Origin: Candidatus Kuenenia stuttgartensis
GTDB lineage: Bacteria > Pseudomonadota > Alphaproteobacteria > SMXS01
Length of the DNA: 40,468 bases
Direction of reading: 5' to 3'
Assembly (NCBI GenBank): GCA_943329845.2
Contig: CALQFM020000034.1
Location: 1 to 40,468, forward strand
Shown: positions 2,196 through 37,682 of the stretch, in pieces
Layout of the letters: each line of letters starts with the position of its first letter
Numbering within the stretch: position 1 is the stretch's first letter
The notes under the pieces: model-generated
What the model saw: only the letters and a program-made list of their open reading frames with translations
What the model was told of the DNA's origin: nothing
The model's database searches: none
Made by a program: the position numbers and the translations under genes

Positions 2196-2525
2196 TTACT
2201 TTTCTTTTTTCTTGTACATGGCCAGCATGCGCTGGGTGACCAGGAAGCCGCCGAAGATGTTGACCGAGGCCATGATCAGGGCGAGGAAGCCGAGAATCTT
2301 CGAGGTCCAGGTCATCCTGGCGAAGCCTTCGGCCATCTCGGGCACCTGGACGCCGACGGCGATCAGCGCGCCGACCACGATCACCGACGAGATGGCGTTG
2401 GTGACCGCCATCAGCGGGGTGTGCAGGGCGGGCGTGACGCTCCAGACCACGTAGTAGCCGACGAAGATCGCCAGCACGAAAATGGCCAGCTCGAAGACGA
2501 CGGGGCTAACGAGTGCATGTTCCAT
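2196..2525 (-). CDS. pntAB: NAD(P) transhydrogenase subunit alpha, membrane part
   Basis: A 109-residue integral membrane protein corresponding to the C-terminal membrane domain of single-chain PntA. Three to four hydrophobic segments are visible ([51 protein letters not shown]), with a lysine-rich C-terminus. In alphaproteobacteria such as Rhodospirillum the alpha subunit is split into a soluble PntAA and this small PntAB, and the same split is seen here. The ATG at 2525 follows the pntAA stop by two bases, which suggests translational coupling. A longer in-frame start upstream would run into pntAA and is rejected. Confidence 0.95.
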
Positions 2526-2527
2526 GA

Positions 2528-3673
2528 TCAGGCTCCGGTGAATTGCGGATGGACGATCTGGCCGTCGCGCGTCAGCAGGATGCCGGCCACCGTTTCGTCG
2601 TCCCAGGCGAAGGACAGGGCGCCGTCCTTGATGTGGGGCGTGATGAAGTTCAGCAGGTTCTTGGCGAACAGGTTCGATGCGTCCACCGGAATGCGGCTGG
2701 GCACGTTGAAGTGGCCGATGATGGTCACGTCGTTGCGGACAACGACCTCGCCCGGCACGGTCAGCGTGCAATTGCCGCCGGTCTCGGCCGCCAGGTCGTA
2801 GATCACCGAGCCCGGCTTCATGGAGGCGACCATGGCGTCGTCGATCAGCTTGGGCGCGGGACGGCCCGGGATCAGCGCCGTGGTGATGGCGATGTCCTGC
2901 TTGGCGATGGTGTCGGCGATCAGCTGGGCCTGCTTGGCCTTGTAGGCGTCGCTCATTTCCTTGGCATAGCCGGCGGCGGTTTCGGCGGCCTTGGACTCCT
3001 CGTCCTCGACCATCAGGAACTTGCCGCCCAGCGATTCGACCTGCTCCTTGGTGGCGGGACGCACGTCGGTGGCGCTGACGATGGCGCCCAGGCGCTTGGC
3101 GGTGGCGACGGCCTGCAGGCCGGCGACGCCGGCGCCGAACACCATGACCTTGGCGGGCGCCACGGTGCCGGCCGCCGTCATCATCATCGGCATGGCGCGC
3201 TTGTAGTGGTCCGCCGCCTCGATGACGGCCTTGTAGCCCGCCAGGTTGTTCTGCGAACTCAGGATGTCCATGGACTGGGCACGGGTGATGCGCGGCATCA
3301 GCTCCATGGCCATGGCGTTGATGCCGGCGGTGGCATAGGCCTTCACGCCCTCCAGATCCTGATACGGCGTCAGCGACGCGATCAGGTAGGCGCCGCGCTT
3401 GATCAGGGCGAACTCGTCCACATCGCCCTCACCGGTGCGCAGCGGACGCTGGATTTTGAAGATCACGTCGGCGTCGGCATAGGTGCTGGCCGCATCGGGC
3501 GCGATTGTTGCCCCGGCCTCGGCGAACACCCGGTCCGGCTGCGATGCGCCGTCACCGGCGCCGGTTTCGACGACGACGTCGAAGCCCAGGCCCTTCAGTT
3601 TCTTCACGGTGTCCGGCGAGACCGCGACGCGGCGCTCGTGCGGACGCCGTTCCTTGGGTACAGCGATTTTCAT
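2528..3673 (-). CDS. pntAA: NAD(P) transhydrogenase subunit alpha, NAD-binding part
   Basis: Soluble NAD(H)-binding domain I of the proton-translocating transhydrogenase, 381 residues, beginning [13 protein letters not shown] as in the alanine dehydrogenase/PntA family. The central Rossmann motif [20 protein letters not shown] and the following ATDVRPA are the NAD-binding elements. [15 protein letters not shown] and [13 protein letters not shown] are further family signatures. It heads the three-gene operon, so the promoter should lie in the 108-base gap (3674-3781) to the upstream gene. It appears complete. Confidence 0.96.
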
Positions 3674-3781
3674 GAAAACGTCCCGTTATGCCGTTTTTTG
3701 GCGATGCTTATCGTTGGGGCGGACTATAGCAGACCATCACTGCGCCGCAACAATCGACGCGGTGTACATGCGCACGTGACT

Positions 3782-7818: not shown

Positions 7819-9243
7819 ATGCGCCGCTCACGCAGCATCCGAATCATCGCCACGCTCGGCCCGGCCAGCAATACGCCGGAGATGATCGACGCACTCCACC
7901 GGGCCGGCGCGGACGTTTTCCGGCTCAACATGAGCCATGGCGACCACGGCCAGATCGCGGCGCTGTACCAAGCGATCCGGGATCTCGAGGCCGAGGTTGG
8001 CGCGCCGATCGGCGTGCTCGCCGACCTGCAGGGTCCCAAGTTCCGCATCGGCGCCTTCGCCGGCGGGCCGGTCATGCTGCGCGAGGGCCACCGTTTCGTG
8101 CTGGACCGCGACCCGTCGCCCGGTAGCCACGACCGCGCAGAGCTTCCCCATCCGGAAATCTTCGCCGCGCTGAAGCCCGGCCAGCGGTTGCTGCTCGACG
8201 ACGGCAAGATCCGGCTGAAAGTGCTCGAGGTGGGGACCGACCGGGCATTGACCGAGGTCGAGTTCGGCGGACCGCTGTCCGACCGCAAGGGCGTCAACCT
8301 GCCCGAGGCTGTGCTGCCGCTGCCGCCGCTGACCGAGAAGGACAAGCGCGACCTCGAATTCGCGCTGGGCCTGGGCGTCGACTGGATCGCCCAATCCTTC
8401 GTCCAGACAGCCGCCGACGTTGCCGCCGCCCGCGACCTCATAGCCGGCCGCGCCAGCCTGCTGGCCAAGATCGAGAAGCCACAGGCGCTGAGGGACATTG
8501 GCGCCATCACGGACATCGTCGACGCGGTCATGGTGGCGCGGGGCGACCTGGGCGTGGAAATGCCGGTCGAGGATGTGCCGGGCGCGCAGAAGACCATCAT
8601 CGACGCGGCAAGGCGGCGCGGCAAGCTGGTGGTCGTCGCCACCCAGATGCTCGATTCCATGGTGAAGTCGCCGGTGCCGACCCGCGCCGAGGTCTCGGAC
8701 GTGGCCAACGCGGTGTTCGAGGGGGCCGACGCGGTCATGCTGTCGGCCGAATCGGCCGCGGGCGATCATCCGATCGAGGCGGTCGAGGTGATGAACAGGG
8801 TCGGCGCCAAGGTCGAACAGGATCCGCATTACCGCACCTATATCGATTCGGTGCGCCCGACGCCCGATGCGACCAGCGCCGACGCCATCATTACCGCGGC
8901 GCGACAGGTGGCGCAGACCATCAAGGCGGCGGTCATCGTCACCTACACCACCTCCGGCTCCACCGCGTTGCGCGCGGCCCGCGAACGCCCGGCGGTGCCG
9001 ATCCTTGCGCTGACGCCCCGGCAGGATACGGCGCGCCGGCTCACGCTTTGCTGGGGCCTCCACAGCGTCATCGGCGAGGACGCGCACAATTTCGGCGACA
9101 TGGTCGACAAGGCGCGCAAGGTCGCCAAGCACCAGGGCTTCGCCCGCACCGGCGACTATATCGTCGTCACCGCCGGCGAGCCGTTCGGCACCCCGGGCCG
9201 CACCAACGTGCTGCGCATCGCCAAGGTGCTGGACAGCGATTGA
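7819..9243 (+). CDS. pyk: Pyruvate kinase
   Basis: Last step of glycolysis, converting phosphoenolpyruvate and ADP to pyruvate and ATP. The 474-residue protein begins MRRSRSIRIIATLGPAS, the family N-terminus. Active-site motifs are in order: FRLNMSHGDH, GVLADLQGPKFRIG, KDKRDLEFAL followed by VDWIAQSFVQ, LLAKIEKPQAL (catalytic lysine region), MVARGDLGVEMP and VVATQMLDSM, ending with a C-terminal regulatory domain. The ATG at 7819 has GAGGA about 9 bases upstream. A longer in-frame extension to 7540 runs antisense through the glycosyltransferase gene and is rejected. It faces rpmJ, with a shared hairpin between them. Confidence 0.97.
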   Translation: MRRSRSIRIIATLGPASNTPEMIDALHRAGADVFRLNMSHGDHGQIAALYQAIRDLEAEVGAPIGVLADLQGPKFRIGAFAGGPVMLREGHRFVLDRDPSPGSHDRAELPHPEIFAALKPGQRLLLDDGKIRLKVLEVGTDRALTEVEFGGPLSDRKGVNLPEAVLPLPPLTEKDKRDLEFALGLGVDWIAQSFVQTAADVAAARDLIAGRASLLAKIEKPQALRDIGAITDIVDAVMVARGDLGVEMPVEDVPGAQKTIIDAARRRGKLVVVATQMLDSMVKSPVPTRAEVSDVANAVFEGADAVMLSAESAAGDHPIEAVEVMNRVGAKVEQDPHYRTYIDSVRPTPDATSADAIITAARQVAQTIKAAVIVTYTTSGSTALRAARERPAVPILALTPRQDTARRLTLCWGLHSVIGEDAHNFGDMVDKARKVAKHQGFARTGDYIVVTAGEPFGTPGRTNVLRIAKVLDSD

Positions 9244-33118: not shown

Positions 33119-33365
33119 CTGTTCCGGATGATGGTTGGTCCCGGCAGGAAGGTAGGGGCGCGCGAAACCGTCGGCAAGCGTCCAGGGGCTTTCGGTTCGC
33201 GCCGCCTCGAATTGGGTCACCAGCGTCATCCGTCAGGCTCGTTCAATCCGATGCGTGCGCCCCCGATAGCGCGCTGTTTTCGTGTAATCTAAAGTCGCTT
33301 TCCGGCGCGACGATCGCAAGCCACCGATCAGCATGGGCCGGCGCGCGGGCCACTTTGGAGGCGGT

Positions 33366-35294
33366 ATGGACGCCAATACGCCGGTGAGTCTGATTGAGGA
33401 GCTTCTGCTCCTGACCCTGGAGGACTCCGGCGGCGAGTTCGACAGCGTGCCCGAGGTGTACCTGACCTGCGGCCTGGCAGGCGGCGCGCTGATGGACCTG
33501 GCGTTGCGGGGGCGGATCGACTCGGACCTCACGTCGCTGTGGGCGGTGGATGAGACGCCGACCGGCGATGTTGTGCTGGACATTGTCCTCGGCGAGATTG
33601 CTGCCGAGCCAGCGCGCCTCGATGCCCGCGCCTGGATCGAGCGGCTGGCGCCGGCCGCCTACGGCATGCGCGAAGCGTCGCTGGGCGCCCTGCAGCGCAA
33701 GCGCATTCTGCGGCAGCAGGACGAGCGCTTCCTTTGGGTGATGCAGGACCGGCGCTATCCGGTCGTCGACGGGCATGAACGCGCCGAGGCCAAGCGGCGC
33801 ATCCTGTCGCTGCTGTTCAACGACGAGATTCCCGATCCGGCGGACGCCGCGCTGATCGCCCTGGCCGACGCCTGCTTCGTGTTCGACCGCATCTTCACCC
33901 AGGCCCAGTTGAAGGAGGTGAAGCCGCGCATCGCGCAACTCGCCGCCCTCGATCTGATCGGCGGCCAGATCGTCGGGACCGCCCAGGATCTCAACCTGAA
34001 GCTGAAGAAGGCCGAGCGGCGCACGGTGATCGCCGGCCTCGCCGGCAACGTCATGGAATGGTACGACTTCGGCATCTACGGCTTCTTCGCCGCGGCCATC
34101 GGCCAGCAGTTCTTTCCGTCCAGCGACCCGACCATGTCGCTGCTCGCCTCCTTCGGCGTGTTCGCGGTGGGCTTCATTGCCCGGCCGCTGGGCGGCCTGG
34201 TGTTCGGCCACATCGGTGACCGGCTGGGACGGCGCACGGCGGTGATCGGCTCGGTGGTGGTGATGATCGTTCCCACCGCGCTGATGGGCCTGCTGCCGAC
34301 CTACGCCCAGATCGGCATCGCCGCGCCCATCCTCCTGGTGTTGCTGCGCCTGGCGCAGGGGCTCGCGGTGGGCGGCGAGTACACCACCTCCATCGTCATG
34401 CTGGTCGAGGGCGCGCTTCCCAGCCGGCGCGGCCGGGTCGGTGCGTTCGCGCCGTTCGGCTCCATCGGCGGCCTGCTGCTGGGCTCGGCGGTCGGCGCGC
34501 TGATCACCGGCTTGCTGCCGCCCGAGACCGCCGCGGCCTGGGGCTGGCGCGCCGCCTTCCTGACCGGGGTTTTCATCGGCCTGCTGGTATTCATCGCCCG
34601 CCGGCGGCTGCCCAGGGAGGTTGCCATCGAAGGGCCGCGGCGTGAGATCTCGCCGATCCGCGAAGCGTTCCGCACCCAGTGGCGGACGATCCTCAAGGCC
34701 ATCGGCTTCAACCTGGTGGCCAGCGTTGGCTTCTACATGTGCTTCGTCTACCTGACGACCTGGCTGATGCAGGTGCACGGGTTCGCCGAATCCCGCGCGC
34801 TGCTGCTCAACAGCCTGGCGTTGCTGAGCCTGATGGTGCTGACGCCGCTGATGGGTATCCTGTCCGACAGGATCGGCCGCAAGCCGGTGCTCCTTGCCGG
34901 AACCGGACTGCTGACCGTCTTCGCCTGGCCGGTCTTCTGGTTGCTCAGCCAGCCTGCGATTGCGGCGATCATCGGCGGCCAGCTCTGTTTGGCGCTGATC
35001 GTGTCGTGCTTTGCCGGCGCCTTCCCGTCCTTCATGGTCGAGGCTTTCCCCAAGCATGTGCGCTGCTCGGGCCTTTCGGTGGGCTACAATCTGGCGCAGT
35101 CGGTTTTCGGCGGCACCGTGCCGGTGGTCGCCGTATTCCTGATCGCCCAGACCGGCGACCCGCTGGCCCCCGCTTTTTACCTGGCGATCACATCGGCGGT
35201 GTCGTTCGCCATGACACTGATGATCTCGGCCCATCACGGCGACGGCCGCCAGGAGAGCATCGCTCCCCAGGCGGCCGTCAAATCCGCGGCCTAG
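33366..35294 (+). CDS. GPP34/GOLPH3 domain fused to an MHS-type MFS transporter
   Basis: 642 residues in one uninterrupted frame; GGAGG precedes the ATG at 33366 by 4 bases. Residues 6-205 match the GPP34 (GOLPH3/Vps74) fold in order: SLIEELLLLTLED, GGALMDLALRGRI, PTGDVVLD (65-72), AWIERL, LQRKRIL, RYPVVD and ALIALADACFVFDRIF. Residues 215-640 are an MFS transporter of the metabolite:H+ symporter group, with VMEWYDFGIYGFFAAAIGQQ and, later, GHIGDRLGRR (281-290). In GOLPH3 a Trp and an Arg before ALRGR bind PI4P. Here the aligned positions look like Pro 29 and Ala 38, so phosphoinositide binding is not expected. The substrate is unknown. It is not in an operon. Confidence 0.88.
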   Translation: MDANTPVSLIEELLLLTLEDSGGEFDSVPEVYLTCGLAGGALMDLALRGRIDSDLTSLWAVDETPTGDVVLDIVLGEIAAEPARLDARAWIERLAPAAYGMREASLGALQRKRILRQQDERFLWVMQDRRYPVVDGHERAEAKRRILSLLFNDEIPDPADAALIALADACFVFDRIFTQAQLKEVKPRIAQLAALDLIGGQIVGTAQDLNLKLKKAERRTVIAGLAGNVMEWYDFGIYGFFAAAIGQQFFPSSDPTMSLLASFGVFAVGFIARPLGGLVFGHIGDRLGRRTAVIGSVVVMIVPTALMGLLPTYAQIGIAAPILLVLLRLAQGLAVGGEYTTSIVMLVEGALPSRRGRVGAFAPFGSIGGLLLGSAVGALITGLLPPETAAAWGWRAAFLTGVFIGLLVFIARRRLPREVAIEGPRREISPIREAFRTQWRTILKAIGFNLVASVGFYMCFVYLTTWLMQVHGFAESRALLLNSLALLSLMVLTPLMGILSDRIGRKPVLLAGTGLLTVFAWPVFWLLSQPAIAAIIGGQLCLALIVSCFAGAFPSFMVEAFPKHVRCSGLSVGYNLAQSVFGGTVPVVAVFLIAQTGDPLAPAFYLAITSAVSFAMTLMISAHHGDGRQESIAPQAAVKSAA

Positions 35295-37248
35295 AACGTC
35301 CGGGTCACCTGCAGGCGCAGCTCCCGGCCGGGATTGATCACGCCGGTGATGTCCTGCGGCGCGCCCAGCGGCTTGCTGCCCAGGCCGGTGGCGTAGATCT
35401 CGTTGGTCAGGTTGGTGCCGATCAACGCGAACTCCCAGCCGCCGCCGGCCTCGTAGATCCGGATCGATGCGTTCAGGATGGTGTGCGCCAGAAAGTCGGT
35501 GTTGGGCTGGCGGTTGTGCACCGTGGTCCAGTGGGTGACGTCGAAGCTAACGCCGATATTGAGTTTGTCGGTCAGCTCATGGTCGTAGTCGGCACCCAGA
35601 TTGAACGTCCACGGCGGCGCCTGGAACGCCTCGCCCGACAGGTCCTGGTGCGGCGTCGGCAACGCCACGCACCCCGTCGCTGCGGTCTGTCCGCTGTAGC
35701 ACGGCGCGTTCGAGTAGTCCTTGAAATGCAGGTCCACATAGGCCACCGAAACATGGGCGTTCAGGTGATCGTCGAACTGGAAGGTGGACTGCAGCTCGAC
35801 GCCCTGGTTGATGGCGCTGGCGGCGTTGCCGATCGAGAAGCTGGTGGTTTCCGGATGGAAGGTCGCCACCTGCAGGCCGGTATACTTGTAGTGGTAGAAG
35901 GTCAGGTCGCCGCTCAGCCGGCCGTCGAGAAAGATGCCTTTCGCACCGACTTCGAAGCCCTCGGCCTTTTCGTCATCGAACGCCAGCGCGTTGTGGAGCT
36001 GCTCGTCGGTGAAGCCGGTATAGTTCGTGACCACGCCCGGATTGCCGATGCCGCCCGCCAGGAAGCCCGTGCGGTAGGCGCCATAGACCGTCAGGTCGTC
36101 CACCGGGTGCCAGGTCAGGGTCGCCTGCGGCGAGAAATTGTCGCCCTTGACCTTCACATGGTAGTCGGCGCCGGTCGGCGCGAACGGATTGCCGGCGCCG
36201 AACAGCGTCAGCCATTCGAACGGCTGGGTGATATGGGTGTCCTTGCTGACCTTGCTCCAGCGTCCGCCGCCCGCGAGTTCCAGGGTGTCGGTGATCTTCC
36301 AGGTGAGTTCACCGAATAACGATTAGCTGACGTTGTTGTTGACGTCGTAGTCGATCATCGTGTTGCTGGCGCCGAAATACGGGCTCGTCGGGTCCACACC
36401 GCGGTGAAGCGTCCGACGAGCTGGTGGGTCCTGGGATATTTCTTGTACGCCGCGCCGGGCAGCTCGGTTGGTCCGGTGTAGAACGGATCGGGAAACTCGG
36501 CTGGCGTAACCGTGATCCCCGTCGTGCCGTTGCGCATGTAGCCGCCTTGCATGGCTTCGCCCCGGATCGCGAGGCGAATGGCGAATTTGTTCGATACCGG
36601 CAGCGACACGGCACCCTCCAGGATCGGGTCCTGCTGCCGGAAGCCGTAGCTGGCCTTGGCGTAGCCTTCGAACTCGCCGGGCTCCGGCGACTTGCTGTCG
36701 ATGACGATCACGCCGGCCGGGGTGTTCTTGCCGAAGAACAGCGACTGCGGCCCCTTCAGCACCTGAATGCTGGCCTGATCGAAGAACCCCGAGTCGACGA
36801 AGTGGCCGCGGCCGACGGGAACGCCGTCGATCACCACAGCGACGGGCTGTTCCGAGGCGTAATCCGGTCCGTAGACGCCGATGCCGCGGATGTAGATGGC
36901 GCTGCCCGGCGTACCGCCGCCGGTGCGGTTGATCTGGACGCCGGGCAGCTGGGTGCCCAGCTGGGTCAGGTCCGTTGTCGCGTATTTTTCAATGGACTCC
37001 GACGGCAGCACCGCGGCGGCGACCGGCACGTCGATCTGCCGCTCCTCCTTCTTGCGCGCGGTGATGGTGACGGATTCGATGCCCGCGTACCGCGCGCTTT
37101 CCTTGGGGGCGGGCGGCGTAGCCTGGTTCGGCGTGTCCTGGGCCGAGGCAGCCGGGGTCCACAAAGCGATGACCGCTGGCAGGCAAGCTGAAAGCAGCAG
37201 GCGCGCAGACAGTCGTCCGCGACCCGCCATCCCGTGGTGCGATGTCAT
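35291..37248 (-). pseudogene. TonB-dependent receptor, disrupted
   Basis: The N-terminal part starts MTSHHGMAGRGRLSARLLLS with a signal peptide ending near ASAQ. The plug domain follows (GIESVTITARKKEERQIDVP, YIRGIGVYGPD, VLKGPQSLFFGKNTPAGVI) and then the first barrel strands. At about 36395 the frame breaks after GRFTAVWT. Another frame continues (DPTSPYFGASNTMIDYDVNN) and then meets a TAA near 36324. The C-terminal barrel (FGELTWKITDTLELAGGGRW to a terminal aromatic, RLQVTRTF) is otherwise well preserved. The total is shorter than usual, so part of the barrel may be deleted at the break. It cannot yield a full receptor as read. Its stop shares CTAG with the GPP34-MFS gene. Confidence 0.85.
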
Positions 37249-37682
37249 GATGTTCTCCCTGTTTCCATACGGCCCACCAGGGCCGCGGCTCCCCGTTGTG
37301 CAGCGATGACGTATTGGCACAGGCCACTCGCCACCTGCTTACTCGACACCCCACATGCCGAGTAAGTATCTGGAAAACAAACAGTAAACTTCAGTCGCCA
37401 GCGCAGTTGACTTTTTCAACGCTAGGACGATTGATCAAAAAAGGCAATGCTGCATGTTTCGAATTGGCGTCCAGCGCACAATTTTCGCGTGTGTTGCCCT
37501 CAGGCCCGGAGATCCTGTTGCGGAAGCCTCAAAGCTGCAGGGCATGCCACGGGTCTGCGATCGGCACGGGGCGCGCCGGCCGCAAGATGCGGACGTTCTG
37601 AATGGTGGGGCCGGGCCGCCAGTTCGCGGCGGCGACGTCAACCGGTGTCCGACCAGGGGCGGGCTGTCCGGCGGGACCGTGC
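37249..37682. other. 434-base intergenic region with a dyad and a possible coding remnant
   Basis: This gap between the TonB receptor start and the small lipoprotein stop holds no convincing complete gene. It contains the inverted repeat listed separately. A short minus-strand stretch (about 37529-37640; NWRPGPTIQNVRILRPARPV, ending at a TGA) reads like a protein C-terminus without any start or body and may be a gene remnant. Confidence 0.4.
37338..37366. promoter_or_regulatory. Operator-like inverted repeat upstream of the TonB receptor
   Basis: CTTACTCG (37338-37345) and CGAGTAAG (37359-37366) are exact inverted copies with a 13-base spacer, about 90 to 118 bases before the receptor start codon. 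The size suits a dimeric regulator site; a hairpin is also possible. Confidence 0.45.

Follow-up and report, generated by a model that had tools for sequence, protein, structure and literature searches.

A GPP34 (GOLPH3-like) domain fused to an MFS symporter in proteobacteria and its candidate link to STAS partner switching

Known GOLPH3-like proteins and STAS networks

The closest described counterpart of the domain studied here is the eukaryotic Golgi adaptor GOLPH3. According to two papers, GOLPH3 binds PI4P through W81, R90, R171 and R174, inserts a hairpin (residues 190–201) into the bilayer and accommodates the basic tails of membrane enzymes in an acidic groove close to the membrane (PMC13408441, PMC12494035). 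In bacteria, the GPP34 protein SCO4440 of Streptomyces coelicolor has an envelope-related phenotype and acts on peptidoglycan and wall-deficient cells. Its gene adjoins that of a D-Ala-D-Ala carboxypeptidase. The SCO4440 paper states that no GOLPH3-like protein had previously been described in a prokaryote, counts GPP34 proteins in 218 bacterial species and reports the wall phenotype, while a possible role is only proposed (PMC12402492). A second Streptomyces paper also mentions GOLPH3 (PMC13238533). SCO4440 is a standalone protein, whereas the GPP34 domain described here is fused to a transporter.

Two further systems invite comparison. Partner-switching relays (RsbU/RsbV/RsbW, SpoIIAA/AB) contain the elements that we find beside part of the GPP34 genes, namely a STAS protein with a serine motif, an RsbW-type HATPase and SpoIIE. 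The canonical outputs of these relays are sigma factors (PMC8256260), whereas a GPP34 domain, in cis on a transporter, is the candidate output in the present case. SulP/SLC26 transporters carry a cytosolic domain that belongs to the STAS network, a likeness that would extend to the present protein through the GPP34-STAS link proposed below. In SulP/SLC26 proteins that domain is STAS, joined directly to the transporter (PMC8256260), whereas in our protein GPP34 forms the N-terminal fusion and STAS is encoded separately. Among the matches listed from the open-licence literature, nothing was found on a GPP34-MFS fusion or on a GPP34-STAS link. New here is the STAS gene adjoining standalone GPP34 genes.

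The fusion gene, its domains and its joint

The window (the whole stretch of 40,468 nucleotides that was analysed) carries the fusion gene with the following features.

33366..35294, + strand: GPP34-MHS fusion gene, one open reading frame of 642 amino acids plus stop; 11 related fusion loci
33357..33361, + strand: GGAGG, ribosome-binding-like, 4 nt before the ATG at 33366; from the sequence
33390..33947, + strand: GPP34 (GOLPH3-like) domain, residues 9–194; Pfam PF05719 and fold match to GOLPH3
33450..33452, + strand: Pro29, at the position of GOLPH3 Trp81 (PI4P site); from the alignment
33477..33479, + strand: Ala38, at the position of GOLPH3 Arg90 (PI4P site); from the alignment
33669..33671, + strand: Arg102, at the position of GOLPH3 Arg174; from the alignment, R in 10/12 and K in 2/12 fusions
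33729..33761, + strand: hydrophobic hairpin tip, FLWV to RRYP, residues 122–132; aligned with GOLPH3 FLLF, low model confidence
33954..34085, + strand: single predicted helix, residues 197–240, GPP34-linker-TM1; AlphaFold2 model and near-gapless alignment of 11 fusions
34044..35204, + strand: MFS symporter part, residues 227–613; nearest to TIGR00883 (MHS)

An alternative in-frame ATG is present upstream, at 33333. The first-pass annotation had read the gene as a single intact frame joining GPP34 to an MHS-type MFS transporter, and the profile search that it proposed agrees over the 642 codons. With hmmscan, GPP34 (PF05719) matches residues 9–194 (E 1.2e-38; 133.6 bits against a gathering cut-off of 29.1) and MFS_1 (PF07690) matches residues 228–580 (E 2.2e-34; 119.4 bits against a cut-off of 33.4). 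A phmmer search of the PDB matched the GOLPH3 structures 3kn1 (E 1.9e-6) and 9qpq (E 3.7e-6) and also Vps74 (E 8.5e-5). Two separate genes joined by a sequencing error are excluded, because the single-frame joint of GPP34 and MFS recurs at 11 further loci. Just downstream of the fusion gene, at 35291–37320 on the − strand, a TonB-dependent receptor is found in two separate frames (35291–36157, with a Pfam barrel match, and 36355–37320, plug-like by eye), so that this neighbouring gene may be interrupted or misassembled.

AlphaFold2 models were obtained for the whole protein (59 alignment rows; pLDDT 85.7, pTM 0.77) and for GPP34 alone (12 rows; pLDDT 79, pTM 0.80). Superposition of the GPP34 model on GOLPH3, another check proposed earlier, gave Z 18.6 and an rmsd of 3.0 over 195 residues for 9qpq, and Z 17.5 and an rmsd of 3.1 over 190 residues for 3kn1. 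The best chain outside the GOLPH3 family reached only Z 2.9, and the GOLPH3 fold therefore extends over the whole domain. The resemblance to GOLPH3/Vps74 thus comprises the fold (rmsd 3.0–3.1 Å over 190–195 residues, at 27% identity to GOLPH3), a hairpin tip that is hydrophobic in the alignment and an equivalent of Arg174; the window protein differs in being bacterial, in being covalently joined to a transporter and in having lost three of the four PI4P residues. Residues 197–240 form one helix in the model, which exits GPP34, spans the linker and enters TM1. Over residues 6–222, the alignment of 11 fusions contains no insertion and lacks a single residue, where one row was trimmed at its start. 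Such a joint would attach GPP34 rigidly to TM1, an arrangement that, judged from the model, suits control of transporter activity. The hairpin region (residues 120–138) is poorly modelled, with low confidence in both AlphaFold2 models.

The PI4P site is largely gone. At the position of W81, proline (Pro29) is present in all 12 fusions and in 33 of 55 GPP34 rows; at that of R90, alanine (Ala38) is present in 10 of the 12 fusions and in 43 of the 55 rows. Both replacements had been proposed earlier, and our alignment agrees. R171 faces a gap, and the adjacent column 99 holds arginine in none of the 12 fusions and in 7 of 55 rows. Arg102, overlooked in the first-pass annotation, is the retained counterpart of R174 (arginine in 10 and lysine in 2 of the 12 fusions; arginine in 32 of 55 rows). 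One residue of the four is thus kept. The set of four marks the eukaryotic effector and not the Pfam family, and a PI4P-type ligand is unlikely for the window GPP34 because three of the four binding residues have disappeared. The hairpin tip FLLF of GOLPH3 aligns with FLWV, in a region of low model confidence, and W124 is found in 12/12 fusions and 48/55 GPP34 rows. Retention of this hydrophobic tip, together with the loss of all but one of the phosphoinositide residues, makes membrane contact without phosphoinositides plausible.

The transporter half was compared with the MHS symporters (ProP, TcuC, the shikimate transporter; TIGR00883). Residues 227–613 align with TIGR00883, the metabolite/H+ symporter model, over its full length (positions 1–399 of 400; E 2.2e-109), but the score of 366.2 bits is below the curated cut-off of 443.45, and the ProP and TcuC models score 287 bits each, far under their own curated cut-offs. 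As all MHS-type scores stay under these cut-offs, we describe the transporter as MHS-like and without an assignable substrate. Its MFS fold is clear, the best fold matches of the whole-protein model being MFS transporters. Since the positions that are invariant across fused and unfused relatives are kept, the MFS part probably still transports.

Distribution and gene neighbourhoods of GPP34 proteins

When 84,980 species genomes were scanned with the window protein, 126 relatives emerged, of which the best 80 were taken. Counting the architecture across genomes, as had been suggested at the first pass, we found GPP34 and MFS in one frame at 11 loci besides the window (L010–L020, of which L020 ends at a contig end) among these best 80 of 126. 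In the other 69 of the 80, GPP34 is absent from the stretch examined (3–13 kb), which sets the window protein apart from most MHS-type relatives. All 11 loci are proteobacterial, nine from alphaproteobacterial groups and two named only as proteobacterium; 4 of the 12 fusions come from records named Methylocystis or Methylocystaceae. Ten of the other fusions are 55–72% identical to the window protein. The fusion occurs in 2 of 7 genomes of the window's genus (L010 and the genus match G002 appear to be the same contig) and in 2 of 10 genomes of its family, five more of which have standalone GPP34 only. A class-wide draw contained GPP34 in 29 of 385 genomes, with the MFS fusion, among the loci examined, only at the window's own locus. 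The GPP34-MFS fusion is therefore rare but conserved. Among 72,556 plasmid records, 1297 match the window protein and none does so over 80% of its length in one place; a viral structure library gave no match at E <= 0.001.

The 12 fusions form one clade, with support of 99/98 in the GPP34 tree and SH-aLRT 100 in the MFS tree. Over 11 rows, pairwise identity averages 61% in GPP34 and 63% in MFS. For the pair window-L010, dN (0.19 in GPP34, 0.18 in MFS) is below dS (0.64 and 0.51) in both halves. Both halves appear about equally constrained. Four frames considered as further fusions (L115, L122, L102 and L114) were rejected, their extra length having no Pfam match and reading as an upstream non-coding frame.

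GPP34 is joined to other partners as well. In the class sample it is fused N-terminally to cytochrome P450 (PF00067) at five loci (L116–L120) and, by eye, in the truncated L121, the group being examined with wider flanks as L163–L167; these P450 fusions form one clade in which the hairpin tip is altered. An MMPL/sterol-sensing transporter gene adjoins the fusion in L121. A second clade (L123–L125) carries a C-terminal 4-TM domain with about four hydrophobic, histidine-bearing segments, whose best Pfam match is a weak one to cytochrome b561 (E 0.2, in L125). A third set (L126–L130; in L128 at 2354–3727), not one clade, has a domain that carries WEWRAFW...RDNIKMRK-like motifs and matches nothing in Pfam; the label 'CYTH-like' is given to it as a guess by eye. 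In L128 a chromate-transporter gene follows the fusion, and homologous frames lie near three other loci. The mean net charge of GPP34 is −4 in the CYTH-like group and −7 to −20 in the other groups. Profiles for STAS, HATPase and SpoIIE found none of these in the P450, 4-TM and CYTH-like fusion stretches. Joined to MFS, P450, a 4-TM domain and a further domain, GPP34 is a module that has repeatedly been attached to other proteins, behaviour that would be expected of a docking or targeting part.

No neighbouring gene is common to all fusions at the 10 loci with usable flanks (the window, L010–L012 and L014–L019; L013 and L020 were left out as short contigs). At four of the 10, however, STAS, an RsbW-type HATPase (HATPase_c_2) and SpoIIE are all found within about 6 kb of the fusion; some of these calls near GPP34 genes are confirmed by Pfam and the remainder come from home-made profiles. 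In L019, L018 and L014 the links look operon-like. The fusion of L019 is followed by HATPase_c_2 and a cNMP-SpoIIE gene, the predicted genes abutting at 7884 and 8300, with STAS divergent. L018 has eight genes in one direction (SpoIIE, HATPase_c_2, hybrid kinase, receiver, STAS, Na/Pi cotransporter, STAS and the fusion), with about 10 bp between the end of the last STAS and the predicted start of the fusion. The SpoIIE frame of L014 opens at the 3′ end of the fusion, with a hybrid kinase and a receiver also near, while in L012 the set lies beyond two transporter-like genes. Raw matches to any of the three profiles occur at 6 of 10 loci. L010 and L017 were not counted for the full set because their matches sit in other proteins: the frame that holds the single HATPase match of L010 has a histidine kinase match too, and the STAS of L017 is within a STAS-TCAD9-kinase-like protein 1.1 kb from the fusion. 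In L010 a GAF-HisKA_2 kinase additionally lies about 90 bp upstream of the fusion, whose 3′ end is overlapped, by eye, by a receiver; L011 has a CHASE kinase about 1.2 kb away.

The 69 unfused relatives gave no profile match to STAS, HATPase or SpoIIE in loci of 3–13 kb; an earlier single-sequence search of unfused loci had given a weak HATPase match in L076 (E 7e-4) and a receiver match in L026. Comparison of 4/10 fusion loci with 0/69 unfused loci gives a Fisher p of 1.4e-4, a rough figure since the control stretches are not matched in length. By profile, the 40-kb window contains no STAS, RsbW-type HATPase or SpoIIE, and the partner-switching set is thus present near GPP34 in relatives (the four fusion loci and the standalone gene of L151, which has STAS, RsbW-type kinase and SpoIIE all near it) and absent beside the window gene.

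Standalone GPP34 genes show the association with STAS more directly. A same-strand STAS gene lies within 200 bp of GPP34 for 13 of 29 genes in the family and class samples, against 0.044 expected from 1–9 STAS domains per genome; as the Poisson figures treat the 29 genes as independent, the count by genus (7/15) is the safer one. L132 (contig edge), L122 (GPP34 match in two pieces) and L160 and L161 (partial matches) were left out of the 29. The other 16 genes have no STAS within 200 bp, and the STAS-linked ones are scattered over the tree, with at least 4 changes of label. The SSAG(L/I)R serine motif is kept in 17 of 19 STAS rows of these loci, and the ATP-binding boxes, by eye, in most of 12 kinase rows. 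In the window genome itself, contig 9 (L131:6763-10795) has a standalone GPP34 gene with STAS, an RsbW-type HATPase 0.5 kb away and an MCP gene behind. This HATPase is the only strong RsbW-type match of the genome (84 bits, the next scoring 34), and the SpoIIE profile has no match there. A Na/Pi cotransporter is present by Pfam in the GPP34-STAS cluster of L134, from the window's genus, as in L018, and homologous frames occur in L132, L157 and L158. In L149 the neighbour of GPP34 is a receiver-SpoIIE protein, and STAS gave no match.

In a second sample, of about 16 kb each, none of four same-class and neither of two other proteobacterial GPP34 genes lies near any of the three. Five matches under the family cut-off (L178–L182), which the home-made GPP34 profile did not match, were left out. 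Among four actinobacterial plasmid loci, STAS is 4.7 kb off in one and a weak HATPase match 7 kb off in another. The GPP34-STAS link is strong and is confined to part of the family. An L,D-transpeptidase gene adjoins GPP34 in L188 (Pfam) and L190 (homologue), from one genus among the four same-class loci, and a beta-lactamase-family gene adjoins it in both non-alphaproteobacterial loci (L192, L193). Together with the neighbour of SCO4440, these peptidoglycan-related and beta-lactamase-family genes hint at an envelope role of GPP34.

Possible roles of the GPP34 domain

A full GPP34 fold lies N-terminal to TM1 in the window protein, continues into it through one helix in the model and is about as constrained as the transporter. 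The N-terminus of MFS proteins is inside the cell. From this topology GPP34 would sit in the cytosol, at the membrane, where its hydrophobic hairpin tip and flat face may lie against the bilayer in the manner of GOLPH3, with no phosphoinositide involved. The gene neighbourhoods suggest that in part of the family GPP34 is a docking site for a STAS protein, set by phosphorylation: an RsbW-type kinase would phosphorylate the STAS serine and a SpoIIE phosphatase would take the phosphate off. STAS binding could then shift the GPP34-TM1 helix and so gate or stabilise transport; the reverse direction is also possible, with the transporter reporting its substrate to the relay. Because the window locus lacks the set, a STAS partner for its fusion would need to be encoded at another site, such as contig 9. 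We give a probability of roughly 0.4 to this candidate reading of GPP34 as a membrane-facing docking module that links the symporter to a STAS partner-switching relay.

It is possible, if doubtful, that no protein partner is involved and that GPP34 uses its hairpin and Arg102 to read anionic lipid, curvature or membrane tension and adjusts the symporter accordingly. ProP, an MHS relative, responds to osmolality and lipid. The conserved W124 tip and the loss of most PI4P residues would fit such a sensor, as would the six of 10 fusion loci that lack the full STAS set; the hairpin is, however, the part modelled with low confidence, GPP34 is also fused to cytochrome P450 with the tip altered, and the STAS, kinase and phosphatase neighbours are left unexplained. 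The first-pass annotation had proposed a membrane- or lipid-sensing module that controls the transporter. A complete domain, a site mostly lost, a retained tip and a rigid TM1 joint suited to activity control agree with its general outline, but lipid sensing itself is not supported as stated, and the genes next to some GPP34 genes point to protein-phosphorylation signalling.

The signalling genes near L014 and L018 (hybrid kinase, receiver), L010 (GAF-HisKA_2 kinase, receiver) and L011 (CHASE kinase) would also suit a transceptor, in which the transporter part senses substrate and GPP34 relays its state to STAS or a two-component system, with gene regulation and not transport as the output. 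We regard this as rather unlikely, as these neighbours vary, none being common to all fusions, and the kept invariant positions suggest that the MFS part probably still transports.

Less likely again is a role in placement or stability only, GPP34 serving to anchor, oligomerise or position the symporter, perhaps within a curved or intracytoplasmic membrane, much as Golgi enzymes are held in place by GOLPH3. Methylocystis and Methylocystaceae, which contribute a third of the fusions, are methanotrophs with internal membranes. The GPP34 groups are acidic, and GOLPH3, in the available text, binds the tails of membrane proteins through an acidic membrane-facing side (PMC13408441, PMC12494035). An integral membrane protein nevertheless needs no peripheral anchor, and the STAS linkage would be left without explanation. 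That the joint is an artefact or functionless (a frameshift, a misassembly or a decaying gene) is hardly credible, even with the fusion in only two of the seven genomes of the genus, given the same joint at 12 loci, constraint on both halves and the lack of insertions.

If GPP34 is indeed a docking module for STAS, a wider and more speculative extension, which we rate as improbable, is that GPP34 in bacteria forms the receiving arm of a STAS relay and a new class of STAS target, recruited onto symporters, P450s and others, and that eukaryotic GOLPH3 would be a descendant in which the phospho-STAS cue was swapped for PI4P and a coat. To our knowledge, bacteria have no COPI coat. Through the fusion GPP34 is fixed next to TM1 of a transporter; the STAS linkage points to a candidate partner and to a phosphorylation cue. 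The transporter joint and the STAS link together make the bacterial job of GPP34 testable, and they bear on the origin of the Golgi adaptor GOLPH3.
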